Below are positions 1 to 16,838 of a DNA stretch of 43,241 nt, piece by piece. Numbering within the stretch: the stretch's first letter is position 1; each line of letters opens with the position of its first letter. Below the pieces are notes generated by a model. That model saw only the letters and a program-made list of their open reading frames with translations. It was not told the DNA's origin and did not search any database. The position numbers and the translations under genes are program-made. The DNA is taken from positions 1 to 43,241 of the forward strand of contig JAILDT010000069.1 in assembly GCA_024689085.1 (NCBI GenBank), in the 5' to 3' direction. The DNA is from Clostridia bacterium (GTDB lineage Bacteria > Bacillota > Clostridia > Peptostreptococcales > Anaerovoracaceae).

Positions 1-1251
1 GACCTGCCCGTTTCCTTTGATGATGTATTTGAAGGTGCATATTTCCTCGAGCCCCAATGGCCCCCGTGCGTGGAGCTTTTGGGTGGAGATTCCCATCTCG
101 CAACCCTGCCCGAATTCACCGCCGTCGGTGAAGCGGGTGGATGCGTTGACATAGACTGCCGCGGAATCCACGAGGGAGGTGAAGAGCTGCGCCGCTTCTT
201 CATTCTCTGTAATGATGCAATCGGAGTGACCTGTCGAATGCGCATCGATGTGCGCGATGGCTTCATCAACGTTGTCGACCACTTTGACGCCCATGATGTA
301 ATTCAGGAATTCCGTGTCAAAATCTTCAGGACCTGCCGACGTTCCATCGATGATGCCGGCTGCCGTCTCATCGAGCCGGAGTTCAACCGGCGTCTGTCCT
401 GCCTTGGCGCGGTCTGCAACCAGTCGGGCATAGTACTTCGGCAGGAATTCCGCCGCGATATCCTTGTGAACGATGCAAACTTCTGCTGCGTTGCAGACAG
501 AAGGGCGACTGGTCTTCGCGTTTTCCAGAATGTCCAGCGCCATCTCCTGATCAGCATCCTTGTCCACGTAGACGTGGCAGATGCCGGTGCCGGTTTCCAG
601 GACAGGGACCTTGGCGTTGTCGACGCAGGAGCTGATGAGCCCTTTGCCGCCGCGCGGAATGAGCAGATCGATGATGCCACGGGCCTCCATGATCTCAGAA
701 GCGGACTGACGCGTCGTGTCTTCAATGAGTTCGATGGAATTCGCCGGCAGACCTGCTTCCGTAAGACCGGCCTTCAGCGCCTTCACGATTTCTGCTGCGG
801 AGCGGCGGGCTTCCTTGCCGCACCGAAGCACACAGGCGGAACCTGCTTTGATAGCCAGAGCAGTTGCATCAGACGTAACGTTCGGCCTGCTCTCATAGAT
901 GATGGCGATCACGCCCATCGGGACCAGGACCTTGCTGATTTTGATGCCGTTCGGACGTTCGTGAGATGCCAGCACTTTTCCGACTGGGTCAGGAAGGGCA
1001 GCGACTTGACGGATGCCGTCGGCCATGCCTTTGATGCGGTCTTCTGAGAGCGCCAGTCTGTCCAGCATCACGTCGGAAATGATGCCTTTCTGGGACTCCA
1101 TATCCTCCGCGTTCGCTGCGAGTATGGCGGGTGTATTCTTCTCAAGCGCGTCTGCCATGCACAGCAGAGCCCGGTTCTTCGTCTCCGTGCTGGCTGCCGC
1201 CAGTGCCGTGCGTGCGCTGCGTGCGCTCTTCATTAATTCCTGTGTAGTCAT
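1..1251 (-). CDS. proA: Gamma-glutamyl phosphate reductase (3' end just cut off)
   Basis: Second enzyme of proline synthesis: NADPH-dependent reduction of glutamyl-5-phosphate to glutamate semialdehyde in the cytoplasm. The 417 visible codons start MTTQELMKSARSARTAL and run off the window edge still in frame. The family is about 415-420 residues, so only the last residue or two and the stop codon are missing. The aldehyde-dehydrogenase fold is clear: YESRPNVTSDA near residue 120, the ETGTG segment near 220, and the catalytic cysteine C253 in SVCNAAE. The ATG at 1251 shares four bases (ATGA) with the stop of proB, which indicates translational coupling and one proBA transcript. Identity is not in doubt. 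Confidence 0.96.
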   Translation of the reverse strand, partial: MTTQELMKSARSARTALAAASTETKNRALLCMADALEKNTPAILAANAEDMESQKGIISDVMLDRLALSEDRIKGMADGIRQVAALPDPVGKVLASHERPNGIKISKVLVPMGVIAIIYESRPNVTSDATALAIKAGSACVLRCGKEARRSAAEIVKALKAGLTEAGLPANSIELIEDTTRQSASEIMEARGIIDLLIPRGGKGLISSCVDNAKVPVLETGTGICHVYVDKDADQEMALDILENAKTSRPSVCNAAEVCIVHKDIAAEFLPKYYARLVADRAKAGQTPVELRLDETAAGIIDGTSAGPEDFDTEFLNYIMGVKVVDNVDEAIAHIDAHSTGHSDCIITENEEAAQLFTSLVDSAAVYVNASTRFTDGGEFGQGCEMGISTQKLHARGPLGLEEICTFKYIIKGNGQV

Positions 1252-2033
1252 TGGATGATTCCTTCTTTGTTTCCTTTGAATAGTGTTCCGGCGCTTTTGC
1301 CTTCCACGATGTCGTAAAGCAGGTTCGGGTTGCTGCCGTTGATGATGACCATGTCGCAGCCAGACTGCGTGACCATCTGGGCAGCGCCGATCTTGGTTGC
1401 CATGCCGCCGGTGCCCAATCCGGAATCCGTGTCACCTGCAAAAGCTTCAATCTCTTTTGTGATTTCCTCGACGGTCTCGATGAGACGCGCATCCGGGTCT
1501 TTGTTCGGATCTGCAGTGAACAGTCCGTCGATATCCGACATGAGGATGAGAATATCTGCGTGGATCGTCTTCGCGACAATTGCCCCCAGCGTATCATTGT
1601 CACCGACGCTGTTGATCTCCGTCGTTGCAACAGTATCATTTTCATTGACGATCGGCAGGGCGCCGAACTGAAGGAGCGTCTTCATAGTGTTTTCGAAATT
1701 TTCCCGGCGCTCCGGGTCTTCGATATCTTCGCTGGTGATAAGAATCTGTCCAACGGTGTGGCTGTACTTCAGGAAGAGGGTGTCGTAAGTGTGCATGAGC
1801 TCGCACTGGCCGACAGCAGCCGCTGCCTGTTTCGCCGGCACGTCCATATGAGCACGGTCCATGTTCAGCTTGCCGATGCCCATGCCGATAGCGCCTGATG
1901 AGACCAGGATGATCTCATGACCGGCATTCTTCAGGTCCGCCAGGACCTTGACCAGTTCTTCCACGTTTCTGATGTTCAGCCTCCCGCCCGGGTGAGCCAG
2001 CGTCGACGTTCCGATTTTTACTACAATTCTCAT
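1248..2033 (-). CDS. proB: Glutamate 5-kinase, short form without PUA domain
   Basis: First enzyme of proline synthesis: ATP-dependent phosphorylation of glutamate. The amino-acid-kinase fold is seen in KIGTSTL (residues 6-12), SSGAIGMGIGK (45-55), NENDTV (130-135) and DIDGLFTADPNKDP (167-180). The protein has 261 residues and ends after the kinase domain. It therefore lacks the C-terminal PUA domain of the E. coli enzyme, as many Firmicute ProB proteins do. An in-frame ATG lies at 2039, but the GGAGG at 2041-2045 is only one base from it. The same GGAGG is seven bases from the ATG at 2033, so 2033 is preferred. The stop overlaps the start of proA. Confidence 0.95.
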   Translation of the reverse strand: MRIVVKIGTSTLAHPGGRLNIRNVEELVKVLADLKNAGHEIILVSSGAIGMGIGKLNMDRAHMDVPAKQAAAAVGQCELMHTYDTLFLKYSHTVGQILITSEDIEDPERRENFENTMKTLLQFGALPIVNENDTVATTEINSVGDNDTLGAIVAKTIHADILILMSDIDGLFTADPNKDPDARLIETVEEITKEIEAFAGDTDSGLGTGGMATKIGAAQMVTQSGCDMVIINGSNPNLLYDIVEGKSAGTLFKGNKEGIIQ

Positions 2034-2073
2034 ATCCATTCCTCCGGGACTGTTTGCAGATTGTTATGGTAAT

Positions 2074-2102
2074 ACTATACTCTGCGTGAATCTGTTTCGC
2101 AA
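2074..2102 (-). promoter_or_regulatory. Sigma-A type promoter of proBA
   Basis: On the minus strand TTGCGA (-35) is followed after 17 bases by TATAGT (-10). Transcription would start about 34 bases upstream of the proB ATG. It lies just downstream of the terminator that closes the neighbouring repeat locus. Confidence 0.6.
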
Positions 2103-2116
2103 TCGGTCTTTCAAAT

Positions 2117-2162
2117 AAAAAAAAATGGGCTGCGTCTTACTTCTCGTACTACGCAGCCCATT
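2117..2162 (-). terminator. Intrinsic terminator facing minus strand
   Basis: Perfect 12-bp stem AATGGGCTGCGT / ACGCAGCCCATT (2124-2135 with 2151-2162) around a 15-base loop. On the minus strand it is followed by nine T residues (2117-2125). There is no T run on the plus side, so it is oriented to end transcripts coming from the repeat region. No coding gene uses it: proB starts downstream of it. Confidence 0.85.
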
Positions 2163-2301
2163 ATCTGTCAACTTGTAACTTCCTCATTTCTGTTACCTTT
2201 CCTTTCCGCGGCCTGATCTGTGCATCCGGGCTTCCTGTTCCCCCGATTGGATCTTTCTTTGATTCCTACGCCGTTCTCACTCTGTACGCTGTTTCTTCGA
2301 A

Positions 2302-2817
2302 CTTCGCTAATTCTACGATTCTTTGTTAGTTCAGTGCGAAACGCTTGCCCGTGGACTTCGCTGGTTCTGCGATTCTCTGTCAGTTCAGTTCATCAGATTC
2401 TGCAACTGTGCTTCGCTGGTTCTGCGATTCTCTGTCAGTTCAGTACATTAGATCCTGCATTGTGCTTCGCTGGTTCTACGATTCTCTGTCAGTTCAGTAC
2501 GTTAGATTCCGTAAATCTGTAACTGCGCTTCGCTGGTTCTACGATTCTTCGTCAGTTCCGTACATCAGATTCCGAGATCCTGCATTTGTGCTTCGCTGGT
2601 TCTACGATTCTCTGTCAGTTCAGTACATTAGATCCTGCTTTCAATCCTGCAAGTGTGCTTCGCCAATTCTTCGATTCTGCGTCGGTTCCACTTCTGAAAC
2701 TGTACTTCGTTTCCGGCCTTCCGCCAATTCTTCCATTCTTTGCTGGCTTCGTGAATCCTGCTGCGGGTTTCGCTAATTCTTCTATTCTATGCTAGTTCCG
2801 CTCGCCGATCCTGCATC
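2302..2817. repeat. Degenerate tandem repeat array, nine units
   Basis: Units begin at about 2302, 2356, 2411, 2465, 2528, 2591, 2658, 2718 and 2768, with spacings of 54, 55, 54, 63, 63, 67, 60 and 50. The plus-strand core starts CTTCGCTGGTTCTACGATTC and continues CTCTGTCAGTTCAGTACATT, then AGATCC. Units 2 to 6 are nearly identical over about 35-44 bases; units 1, 7, 8 and 9 are diverged. A variable tail of 10-25 bases joins them. The longer units gained 9-13 bases by small duplications of an AGATTCCG/AGATCCTGC-like piece. Confidence 0.9.
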
Positions 2818-2896
2818 CTTTGCCGCTATTCGTTTTTCAAGGTACCGTTTTTTATATCTCAGGGGGTCCTCCTTCAGGTGCCCTCCTGTCGACCTT

Positions 2897-2925
2897 AAAA
2901 TACTACGCCCGGGGGATACAGTCAA
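2897..2925 (-). promoter_or_regulatory. Promoter reading into the repeat array
   Basis: Minus strand TTGACT (-35, 2920-2925), 17-base spacer, TATTTT (-10, 2897-2902). The spacing is ideal and the -35 box matches five of six consensus bases; the -10 matches four of six. The start would be near 2890. The next gene on this strand is proB, past a terminator, so the promoter serves the repeat locus if it is real. Confidence 0.45.
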
Positions 2926-3026
2926 TAGGTTTGGGGCATGTCTTTTGTTGTTTTTGTGTACTAATAATACAACGCAGAACAATGCATTCGCGCGTGAAAG
3001 TAAGGAGGAGAAGAGAACGCAATATG

Positions 3027-3035
3027 TGGTATAAT
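3027..3035 (+). promoter_or_regulatory. Extended -10 promoter of metallopeptidase gene
   Basis: TGGTATAAT fits the extended -10 form TGnTATAAT. No recognisable -35 box sits 17 bases upstream. A start near 3042 would leave a leader of about 13 bases, just enough to keep the GGGAGGGA ribosome binding site at 3041-3048. Confidence 0.55.
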
Positions 3036-3054
3036 GTGCTCGGGAGGGAACCAA

Positions 3055-3420
3055 ATGGACTTAAACAGAATGGGAGAAATCCTGGATATGCTCGCGGAAG
3101 AACTGCCGGAGGAATTCTACAAAGACCTGAATGCCGGCATTGTTCTGACGCCTGAGATCAAAAGAAGCCCCCACGGCGATGACCTGCTGATCATGGGTGA
3201 GTACTCCAGATCGAATCTGGGGCGCGGTATTTCGATTTACGGCGGTTCCATTAATAGCGCCTACGGATGGATGTCCGAAGAGCAGATGACCGAGCAGCTC
3301 CGGGAGGTGCTCCGCCATGAGTTCACTCATCACATCGAATCTCTGGCAGGGGAGAGAGGGCTGGAGATCAAGGACGAAGAGCAGCTTCGCGACTATTACA
3401 ACAGCAAGAAGAAAAGATAG
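3055..3420 (+). CDS. Small zincin-type metallopeptidase family protein
   Basis: 121-residue soluble protein of a family conserved in Clostridia and annotated as metallopeptidase. The zinc motif HEFTH (H88, E89, H92) sits in RHEFTHHIESLAGERGLE, and an acidic D/E-rich tail follows. The first half (ELPEEFYKDLNAGI, IMGEYSRSNLGRGISIYGG) matches the family pattern. The natural substrate is unknown. A longer reading frame begins at 3034, but the ATG at 3055 has GGGAGGGA about seven bases upstream and gives the usual family N-terminus. The gene stands alone and converges on ilvE across a shared terminator. The metallopeptidase activity is inferred from the HExxH motif only. Confidence 0.82.
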   Translation: MDLNRMGEILDMLAEELPEEFYKDLNAGIVLTPEIKRSPHGDDLLIMGEYSRSNLGRGISIYGGSINSAYGWMSEEQMTEQLREVLRHEFTHHIESLAGERGLEIKDEEQLRDYYNSKKKR

Positions 3421-3444
3421 TAGATCAGAAAACAATGACATCAA

Positions 3445-3474
3445 AAAGACCGCGGCCGAATGGCTGCGGTCTTT
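3445..3474. terminator. Bidirectional intrinsic terminator
   Basis: A 13-bp stem with one G-U pair (AAAGACCGCGGCC with GGCTGCGGTCTTT) around a four-base loop. A-rich sequence precedes it and T-rich sequence follows, so it can stop both the metallopeptidase gene and the converging ilvE. Confidence 0.8.
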
Positions 3475-3494
3475 GCTGTTGCTTTTGCAAATCC

Positions 3495-4526
3495 TTATTT
3501 GATTTCGTGGATCCAGCCTTCCGGTCCTTCGACGGTACCCATCTGGATTCCGGTCAGTGTATCGTAGAGATTCTTGAGGACAGGGCCCATTTCGTCCATG
3601 CCGCTCGGGAAGCAGATTTCTTTACCGTGGTCGTTGATTTTGCCGACCGGGGCGATGACAGCTGCGGTACCGCAAAGTCCGCATTCCGCAAACTCAGGAA
3701 CTTCCGCGATCGGAACTTCTCTCTGCTCAATATCCATACCGAGGATGTCCTTGGCCACGATCATCAGGCTTCTTCTTGTGATGGAAGGGAGAATGGAGTT
3801 GGACTTGGACTTCGGCGTGATGATTTTGCCTTCCTTCGTTACAAAGAGGAAGTTCGCGCCGCCGGTCTCCTCAACGCAGGTTCTGGTCGCAGCGTCCAGG
3901 AACATGTTCTCCGAGAATCCTTCCTGGTGCGCAACTTCATGCGCGTGGAAACTCATGGCGTAGTTCAGACCCGCCTTGATGTCGCCGGTGCCGTGCGGAG
4001 CCGCTCTGTCGAAGTCTGAAATCTTCAGAACGAGAGGCTTGATGCCGCCCTTGAAATAAGGGCCAACCGGCATGCAGATCATGCGGAACTCAAATTCTTC
4101 AGCCGGAGCAACGCTGATCATCGGTCCGCTTCCATAGACGAACGGGCGGATGTACATTGTCGCGCCGCTGCCGTATGGCGGAACCCAATCCAGGTTGTTG
4201 GCTACCAGCATATCCAGTGCTTCCATGAACATCTCTTCCGGAACAGGCGGAATGCCCAGTCTTTCGCATGAGTCGATCATTCTCTGCGCGTTCAGGTCAG
4301 GGCGGAAAGTAACGGTTCTGCCGTCCGGAGTTGTGTATGCTTTCAGACCTTCAAAAACAGTCTGCGCGTACTGCAGTACGCAGGCACATTCCGAAATGTG
4401 GCACGTGTGATCAGCAGTCAGTTTGAGTTCGCCCCACTTGCCGTCCTTATACATGGCGCTGACGCTGTAGTCAGTTGGCTGGTAGACGAATCCAAGGCTG
4501 CCCCAGTCGATGTTCTTCTTAGTCAT
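3495..4526 (-). CDS. ilvE: Branched-chain amino acid aminotransferase (class IV)
   Basis: PLP enzyme that transfers the amino group between glutamate and the keto acids of leucine, isoleucine and valine. The 343-residue length and the sequence match the longer, eukaryote-like ilvE type (TVFEGLKAY near residue 56, MYIRPFVYGSGP near 124). The PLP lysine is K184 in GTGDIKAGLNYA, and the phosphate-binding and substrate segments CVEETGGANFLFV and ECGLCGTAAVIAPVG are present. A GGAG lies ten bases before the ATG. No other ilv or leu gene is adjacent; hypB lies upstream on the same strand. A separate promoter and a direct repeat precede the gene, so it is probably its own transcription unit. Confidence 0.95.
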   Translation of the reverse strand: MTKKNIDWGSLGFVYQPTDYSVSAMYKDGKWGELKLTADHTCHISECACVLQYAQTVFEGLKAYTTPDGRTVTFRPDLNAQRMIDSCERLGIPPVPEEMFMEALDMLVANNLDWVPPYGSGATMYIRPFVYGSGPMISVAPAEEFEFRMICMPVGPYFKGGIKPLVLKISDFDRAAPHGTGDIKAGLNYAMSFHAHEVAHQEGFSENMFLDAATRTCVEETGGANFLFVTKEGKIITPKSKSNSILPSITRRSLMIVAKDILGMDIEQREVPIAEVPEFAECGLCGTAAVIAPVGKINDHGKEICFPSGMDEMGPVLKNLYDTLTGIQMGTVEGPEGWIHEIK

Positions 4527-15524: not shown

Positions 15525-16838
15525 CTATACGGTCTTGCGCCTGTTGCGTAAGAGTACGATGACAACTGCGATTGCGATTGCGATAAGAGCCAGAATAATG
15601 GCGATCTTTGTAGCGCCGCCCACACCTGACTGCTCATCACCGATAGACTTGCCTTCTTCTGCTGCGAGATAAACGTGAACAGCATCCGTGGATCCTTCGG
15701 TGTACTCAACAACGACCTGCTGTCCGAGCGCTTCTTCGCTGGTTACATCGAGCTGAGCGCCTGCGATGTTATAGGTGGTTCCGTCGTCAAGAGTAAGAGT
15801 TCTTCCATCAACATCAGTTACGATGCCCTTTGCGATAAGGGTTACAGGTTCTTCTGTCTGCTTTTCCGTCTGTTCTTCCGTTACCTCTTCCGTCTGCTCT
15901 TCCGTTACCTCTTCCGTCTGCTCTTCTGTTACTTCTTGAGTCTGTTCTTCTGTAGACTTGGTTTCGGTAGCTTTGGTTTCGGTAGCTTTGGTTTCAGTAG
16001 CTTTGGTTTCGGTAGCTTTAGTTGCTGTCGCCTTAGCCGGATCCTTCGTCGTCAGATAACTAGATGCGATGAAGCGGTCCTTATCCTTGTAAGTGACTCT
16101 GCTCCAGCCGTTGCTCAGTACGCCGGTACGAGTGAGTTTCGTCCCTTTCTTGATGGTACCGACCTTTTCGGAATCTGTGCTGGCTTCCGCTCTGACGTTG
16201 ACCTGGGTCGACGCCCAAACCGTTTCATTGGCAGCCTTGACCGATACAGCGTTGGCAGTTGTTTCAGTCGGTTCGGTATTCTTGGCAGCTGACATGCTTC
16301 TGACATAAGCATGGCTCGTGTCGTCGCCGTTGATGACGCCCGCGTACGTTACCTTGACGGCTTCGCCGGCCTTCACCTTGCCATTCTGAGCAGCGACATC
16401 CGCTTTCTGGAACGTGTATTTCTTGTTGTTGCTCGTGATGGTTACTGTGCTGTCGCTGTTAATGGAGTCGATGACGCCCTCGATGGTTGTCTCCGCGCCC
16501 GCGACATCGACGACCTTCTGAACCTGACACCCTGATGTATCGCCGTTTACGACTTCGCCGGTATACTCAACAGTAGCGGTATCGCCAGGGTTGATGCCGT
16601 CCTCGGATACGATTTCAGCATTTTCGATGTTGAAATTCAGTTCCTCGTCGGCCTGTGTGTAGATCTGAAGCTGCCCGCCTGACAGTTCATCAACGATACC
16701 CGCTACACTGTGCGCAGCAGCGGCTTCTGTTGCAGGTTCAGGCTCTTCGGAAGTTTCGCCGCAGCCGGCCATGAGCAAAGCCATCAGAACGACGGTTGCA
16801 ACCGCCGCCAGCGTCAGCAGTAAGTTCTTTCTTTTCAT
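15525..16838 (-). CDS. Lipoprotein with SH3 domain, acidic repeats and C-terminal helix
   Basis: 437-residue secreted protein of unknown function. A signal peptide ends in the lipobox LMAGC, so the mature protein starts with a lipid-modified cysteine. Two small beta domains follow (HSVAGIVDELSGGQLQIYT; TTIEGVIDSINSDSTVTIT), then a bacterial SH3 domain (STQVNVRAEASTDSEKVGTI, residues about 195-260). Next come KATET repeats (about four copies) and TEEQTEEV repeats (about three copies), another small domain, and a C-terminal hydrophobic helix with RNRRKTV. GGAGGT lies 11 bases before the ATG at 16838. It may hold the cell wall to the membrane from both ends. The repeats are in frame in the DNA (15-base and 24-base units). 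Confidence 0.82.
   Translation of the reverse strand: MKRKNLLLTLAAVATVVLMALLMAGCGETSEEPEPATEAAAAHSVAGIVDELSGGQLQIYTQADEELNFNIENAEIVSEDGINPGDTATVEYTGEVVNGDTSGCQVQKVVDVAGAETTIEGVIDSINSDSTVTITSNNKKYTFQKADVAAQNGKVKAGEAVKVTYAGVINGDDTSHAYVRSMSAAKNTEPTETTANAVSVKAANETVWASTQVNVRAEASTDSEKVGTIKKGTKLTRTGVLSNGWSRVTYKDKDRFIASSYLTTKDPAKATATKATETKATETKATETKATETKSTEEQTQEVTEEQTEEVTEEQTEEVTEEQTEKQTEEPVTLIAKGIVTDVDGRTLTLDDGTTYNIAGAQLDVTSEEALGQQVVVEYTEGSTDAVHVYLAAEEGKSIGDEQSGVGGATKIAIILALIAIAIAVVIVLLRNRRKTV

Follow-up and report, generated by a model that had tools for sequence, protein, structure and literature searches.

Several small RNAs, among them SR1/SR1P, SgrS/SgrT and VcdRP, contain a short ORF. RNAs of the CsrB/RsmZ type hold many alike hairpins with GGA loops in one molecule, and ToxI is arranged in the order promoter, repeats, terminator. 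Repeated translation in which the ribosome is not released is reported for ORFs of 2-8 codons, and mccA, the seven-codon gene of the microcin C precursor, has a terminator that yields a short mccA transcript, the mRNA being translated reiteratively in vitro (PMC6495379). The minigene mg2 of axe-txe consists of two codons and acts on the following gene (PMC8708949), and VcdP has 29 residues. Genes of eight codons are practically unsearched, and one survey of small-RNA ORFs began at ten residues and counted only ORFs of 10-50 residues (PMC5521070).

The locus compared here with these systems lies on the minus strand of a 43,241-nt contig of a Clostridia bacterium (the window, by which we mean the whole stretch of DNA analysed). 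Judged from sequence, it is probably a stand-alone octapeptide gene or a dual-function small RNA, linked in many of its short forms to CodY, and comparison between genomes supports the reading of one transcription unit with residue-level selection on the octapeptide. The locus shares with mccA a very short ORF preceded by a Shine-Dalgarno sequence and followed by a terminator, with the dual-function small RNAs a promoter and terminator of its own around a short ORF, and with mg2 what is proposed here, a translated tiny ORF on an mRNA. The many similar hairpins in one stand-alone RNA recall the CsrB/RsmZ-type sponge RNAs. There are also differences. The sequence is unrelated to that of mccA, the C-terminal Asn needed by MccB occurs in 1 of 33 peptides, no MccB adenylyltransferase-like domain was found in the seven window proteins scanned, the terminator ends the unit, and a long structured 5' region precedes the ORF. 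Unlike the dual-function small RNAs, the locus has an ORF of only eight codons, which is at the upper edge of the range for repeated translation, and no base-pairing partner stands out in a search of its own genome; unlike in CsrB/RsmZ, the conserved loop is AGAAUYGNAGAA and not a GGA loop; and, in contrast to mg2, conservation extends to the peptide and the gene behind the unit is not a fixed one. Small RNA genes that hold a tiny ORF are an already known kind, the RNA family with a variable hairpin array is new, and what is unusual is the length of the ORF and the occurrence of the array in only some species. In the part of the literature that was available no description of it was found, and supplements of structured-RNA surveys (e.g., PMC8040213) may hold an unnamed prediction.

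The layout of the predicted RNA gene in the window is given in Table 1. An earlier note, made from the letters of the window alone, had described nine degenerate repeats between a minus-strand promoter of ideal spacing and a minus-strand intrinsic terminator with nine T residues, as well as a purine-rich RNA of about 770 nt, and these features are all borne out: a 37-nt repeat core occurs nine times at 2302-2804 (spacings 54, 55, 54, 63, 63, 67, 61 and 49), the plus strand carries nine A at 2117-2125, opposite the T-run, and the predicted RNA has 772 nt and a purine fraction of 0.65. Tandem Repeats Finder (TRF) detects the central part of the array only (2356-2638, score 289). Taken alone, the window promoter is weak evidence, with four promoter-like sites observed in 1500-3500 against 1.8 expected. 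The upstream block TACACAAAAACAACAAAAGACATG is present with few changes in the long, array-bearing forms and in several short forms, and 5' hairpins judged by eye to resemble that of the window occur in relatives. The whole predicted RNA folds better than its own shuffles (z -2.6, 20 shuffles), and the unit is single-copy within its own genome.

Table 1. Features of the predicted RNA gene and its two neighbours in the window.
Feature	Position	Strand	Remark
Conserved block upstream of the promoter, TACACAAAAACAACAAAAGACATG	2937..2960	-	Candidate UP element or operator
Sigma-70-type promoter TTGACT-17-TATTTT	2897..2925	-	Comparable pair, likewise 17 nt apart, at the corresponding position of 10 further long-form loci
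5' hairpin of the predicted RNA	2860..2888	-	Predicted by folding the complete RNA
Array of nine units, short stem CYRR/YYRG around loop motif AGAAUYGNAGAA	2286..2806	-	
Shine-Dalgarno-like sequence AAGGAAAGG	2196..2204	-	Weak in the window; AGGAGGU in some relatives
Eight-codon ORF MRKLQVDR*	2161..2187	-	ATG from 2187, stop TAA 2163-2161
Intrinsic terminator	2117..2162	-	Arms 2124-2140/2146-2162; T-run 2125-2117
proB (amino acid kinase)	1248..2039	-	Downstream neighbour, outside the unit
Small HEFTHH-motif (zincin-like) protein gene	3055..3420	+	Upstream neighbour, outside the unit

The distribution of the unit was followed with covariance models of the repeat unit (R1) and of the 3' module (R2). 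A DNA search gave matches in 14 of 61 genomes, its own genome counted. R1 found arrays in 12 of the 49 genomes of the genus, and across the order in 5 of 297 genomes, every one of them of the same genus. Behind the array, each of these 12 genus genomes has one and the same 3' module, and in 11 of the 12 the array is preceded by the promoter pair with 17-nt spacing and the upstream block TACATAAAAACAACAAAAGACATG or a variant of it, the promoter side of the twelfth (G071) being lost at a contig end. Promoter, repeats and terminator, all in the minus-strand sense of the window, are therefore kept together wherever they are in view (the terminator module in 12/12, the promoter in 11/11), and an array lacking promoter and terminator in a relative, the case that the note had named as speaking against it, was not encountered among the 12 array genomes. 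The 3' module is more widespread: at E <= 0.01, R2 places it at 33 sites in 29 of the 49 genus genomes, each a different species (33 of 49 matches were used, 15 were antisense on the same terminators, and G013:C73, E 0.005, was left out of the 33). At the same threshold it is absent from 20 of the 49 genomes, including 10 of the 18 good ones. No array match was obtained in 17 of the 29 module-bearing genomes, and the 33 places divide into 12 long forms, 18 short forms without repeats and three others, namely an intermediate (G002:C172), a remnant (G017) and a copy cut at the contig start (G069:C212). Since 18 places are short and lack repeats, the ORF and the terminator constitute the constant part. 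The array may have been either gained or lost among these species. Two places per genome occur in G002, G003, G018 and G069; G003 and G018 each hold one long-array form and one short form.

R2 matched 9 of 297 genomes across the order, two of them outside the genus (G047 and G159) and both without the ORF, and across the family a further model, R3, matched 33 of 349 genomes, four of these outside the genus at E values of 5e-5 to 9e-4. Three of the four have no ORF, and the fourth (L176, G193:C3:39995-40077), in another genus, has a short frame of loose resemblance that follows immediately on a gene, and is probably a chance match. Neither phages nor plasmids gave a match. The ORF pattern, which is blind to the window's own K3 variant, was found in 0 of 391 genomes of the class, the sole genus member drawn being G000, and, with the same blindness, in no viral contig; the repeat pattern gave five single matches in viral contigs. 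A repeat-pattern scan of named genomes returned 30 stretches, 11 with three or more matches and 19 with one. The 11 multi-match contigs carry titles of Firmicutes, Bacillota or Clostridiales MAGs (one is Firmicutes bacterium UBA1191, and goat gut is the origin of several), and four of the 19 single-match stretches (L027, L038, L040 and L041) showed no promoter block and no 3' module. The statement that the RNA fits no known class holds in Rfam 15, where no family reached the gathering cut-off in the window and 20 related loci, the four sub-threshold matches of the window lying at chance level (E 3-8.9).

The 3' end of the RNA changes the earlier interpretation. According to the note no gene uses the terminator; in fact an eight-codon ORF ends on it, the base of the terminator stem overlapping the stop codon at 2161-2162. 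The description as simply a non-coding RNA likewise gives way to this ORF, which is conserved at the protein level and whose module occurs in 29 of 49 genomes against 12 of 49 for the repeats. The peptide is MRKLQVDR in the window and elsewhere mostly [MVL]RVL[QM][VI]D[RK]*. A start codon is present in 31 of the 33 loci (ATG 18, GTG 10, TTG 3), the stops are TAA in 31, TAG in one and TGA in one, and in G001 the predicted peptide has nine residues, beginning at an ATG one codon earlier. Across the 33 loci, positions 2 to 5 read R in 33; V in 29 and K in 4; L in 33; and Q in 21, M in 10 and R in 2, and positions 6 to 8 read V in 21, I in 9 and G, L and F in one each; D in 30 and N in 3; and R in 16, K in 16 and N in one. 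Five leucine codons and four valine codons are in use. Pairwise comparison of the 25 distinct sequences gives 1215 codon differences, of which 584 (0.48) leave the residue as it is and 631 change it, and when columns are permuted the share kept is 0.155 +/- 0.073 with a maximum of 0.443, so that 0 of 2000 permutations reach the observed value; the two loci without a start codon and six duplicates are left out of this test, which ignores the tree. At the level of sequence comparison, the codon differences have the pattern of selection on a peptide, and in the column permutation test the ORF shows the amino-acid-level conservation expected of a dual-function small RNA. Codon 2 is AGG in 33 of 33 loci, so constraint at the RNA level may account for some of this conservation. 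The mean pairing energy with the anti-Shine-Dalgarno is -8.4 kcal/mol against -6.0 in shuffles; the Shine-Dalgarno of the window is weak, with -4.0 kcal/mol in a 14-nt stretch (L127, L129 and L130 are similar) and -7.6 in one of 20 nt. One locus, L149 (G017:C76), is a decayed copy, with an ORF lacking a start codon, no recognised promoter and a retained terminator.

The short forms give RNAs of 184-365 nt (15 with a reliable start). Among 14 aligned short forms AUAGAU is invariant, ACAACUGAAUA is exact in 10, and the terminator stem shows compensatory changes. Scored against what we take to be the CodY consensus, 10 of the 18 short-form loci have in the promoter a sequence resembling a CodY box, with no more than two mismatches; for each of eight of these ten boxes, 4 or fewer of 300 Markov shuffles did as well, and the other two (L144 and L150) were counted without shuffles. 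The remaining eight short forms have no CodY box (3-8 mismatches), nor do the 11 long-form loci in view (4-7 mismatches). As codY is encoded in 46 of the 49 genomes as well, the short form is in many species probably under CodY and hence nutrient-responsive. The promoters of L143, L144 and L150 were read by eye, that of L158 is cut by the contig, none was obtained at L154 and none was recognised at L149. Two further candidates in these RNAs are not upheld. A long-range AUUCAG/CUGAAU helix of the short forms fits part of the 14 sequences, is absent from the RNAalifold consensus and is not claimed, and an rRNA-like boxA (CTTGAAAACTGAATA), exact in 2 of 49 genomes and once inside the RNA (G004), was dropped. 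At its other place there is no rRNA but a match to pemK RNA; in G067, positions 1289-1363 of L159 (minus strand) score above the gathering threshold for pemK RNA (RF02913).

The genes around the unit bear on a quite different explanation, in which the ORF is the leader peptide of an attenuator and its translation alters the folding of the overlapping terminator and thereby controls the next gene. The overlap of stop codon and terminator stem would suit such a device, as would the position of proB in the window, on the same strand and 78 nt behind the module. However, flanking genes vary from locus to locus: the next genes elsewhere include a permease, a pyruvate:ferredoxin oxidoreductase, a PALP-family enzyme, an MFS or ABC transporter and others, codirectional next genes belong to unrelated families, and in 9 of the 33 loci the ORF predicted next lies on the opposite strand and matches Pfam (these nine loci represent seven sites, three of them sharing one site with DUF1848, and the scan in relatives covered 20 of 30 ORFs of at least 100 aa). 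In G035 (L130) the cassette is even inverted between the window's two neighbours, the HEFTHH gene and proB, and in G004 (L133) it is likewise turned round with respect to the HEFTHH gene. Because the next genes differ or are convergent, the terminator closes the unit and does not act as the switch of a fixed gene; with no conserved regulated gene downstream, attenuation is rejected here and we consider it very unlikely. The separate promoter that had been attributed to proB comes down to a 9-of-12 consensus match at 2102-2074, while proB does lie beyond the terminator. The HEFTHH-motif protein itself (3055-3420, plus strand) has no Pfam match, and small proteins with this motif also occur in relatives.

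The repeats form a second layer. On the minus strand a unit reads GAA-CYRR-CNN-AGAAUYGNAGAA-YYRG-CGAAG, and the 11 complete arrays hold 7 to 11 units. In 73 distinct units (ten duplicates were removed from 83, and units of G064, G071 and G002:C172 were left out) the outer pair is C-G in all 73, and the inner pairs are standard in all 73 (UA 40, CG 32, UG 1 and AU 51, GC 16, GU 6), with changes on both sides of the stem; the fourth pair is formed in 56, and G-U is found at the fourth pair in 33 of 73 units and at the third in 6. Over 11 arrays with 90 units, a unit's own arms pair at 180 of 180 inner positions (170 of them Watson-Crick); shuffling the arms within arrays (1000 trials) gives 159 on average and never more than 166 of 180. 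When a doubtful outer helix is included in the structure, all 500 shuffles are exceeded on three of five covariation measures, but not on the other two (312 and 483 of 500); that outer helix, paired in 62.7% of cells, is not claimed. RNAalifold predicts no pair in the repeat units, and energy folding of five single array units gives the stem in 0 of 5, so by itself the stem is weak, and contacts within the loop or a protein may be required for it. The remark that the RNA shows little self-pairing is therefore right as far as energy folding goes, which finds no repeat stem, and wrong in that each repeat has a short covarying one. Two of three units of the diverged copy G002:C172 have longer stems. 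Coding across the repeats was rejected, the spacings not all being multiples of three. These comparisons support RNA-level selection on the hairpins and suggest that they have a separate RNA-level function.

Covariation of this kind could also be expected if the array were the whole point, that is, if the transcript were a non-coding sponge whose AGAAUYGNAGAA loops sequester an RNA-binding protein or another RNA and the ORF were incidental or a protection of the 3' end. The variation in unit number among the complete arrays would agree with this, as would the loop sequence, which is nearly frozen and common to the units; its invariance is in part by construction, because the units were picked by a pattern that contains the loop and the 3' arm, the 5' arm being outside it. 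Titration, which had been proposed earlier, is possible for the hairpin loops of the array. Titration of CsrA is unlikely, however, and a Csr/Rsm sponge was rejected: csrA occurs in 1 of 49 genus genomes, which is not that of the window and itself lacks the module (G036). The loop 12-mer occurs elsewhere in the genome four times against two for a reversed control, so no RNA partner stands out. Given the missing array in most module-bearing genomes and the rarity of csrA, a pure sponge is less likely, and with an ORF conserved residue by residue we regard it as improbable.

The arrangement of promoter, repeats and terminator resembles ToxI as well, and would permit a type III toxin-antitoxin RNA with a ToxI-like repeat array before its terminator. 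Tandem repeats that fold as pseudoknots mark that class, and the repeats of this locus are degenerate. The gene directly after the terminator is proB and not a toxin, none of the seven window proteins, both neighbours included, matches PADLOC models, and most module-bearing relatives lack the array; this candidate was rejected and appears extremely improbable. Finally, relatives have the cassette at various sites and in either orientation, which could indicate a DNA-level element, either a row of sites to which a protein binds or a mobile cassette with the promoter and the terminator as its limits. Here the tolerance of G-U pairs in the stem fits an RNA better than a DNA dyad, and promoter, Shine-Dalgarno, ORF and terminator share one sense, which leaves a DNA-level role with very little probability indeed.

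In the reading that we prefer, the octapeptide gene or dual-function small RNA, the promoter would drive an RNA of about 184-910 nt that ends with a ribosome-binding site, the eight-codon ORF and an intrinsic terminator whose stem starts inside the stop codon, and that in a subset of species carries the 7-11 hairpin units. We infer that the RNA is a small mRNA, or a dual-function small RNA, making an octapeptide that would mostly read [fM]RVL[QM][VI]D[RK] and might be produced by repeated translation without ribosome release, as for other ORFs of 2-8 codons. The 5' region, together with the array where there is one, may serve as a stabilising or protein-binding leader that controls the life or the translation of the RNA. 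More speculatively, the locus might be a free-standing gene for an unprocessed octapeptide, fMRVLxVD[RK], acting as an autonomous signal or effector from a nutrient-controlled RNA, with an expandable protein-binding hairpin array metering synthesis in a subset of species; we put this forward tentatively, as possible and somewhat doubtful. If true, few known protein-coding genes under selection would be as short, and no biosynthesis cluster would accompany it. What brings the octapeptide to light is the agreement of promoter, Shine-Dalgarno-like sequence, terminator and codon-level substitution in 29 genomes, and it offers a concrete test of whether eight residues made by the ribosome can by themselves be the product of a gene.

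A second repeat region of the window was observed in passing. At 15848-16034 two tandem arrays adjoin, with 12/24-nt and 15-nt units, all multiples of three, inside a minus-strand ORF with an SH3_3 domain, and they probably encode a low-complexity linker.
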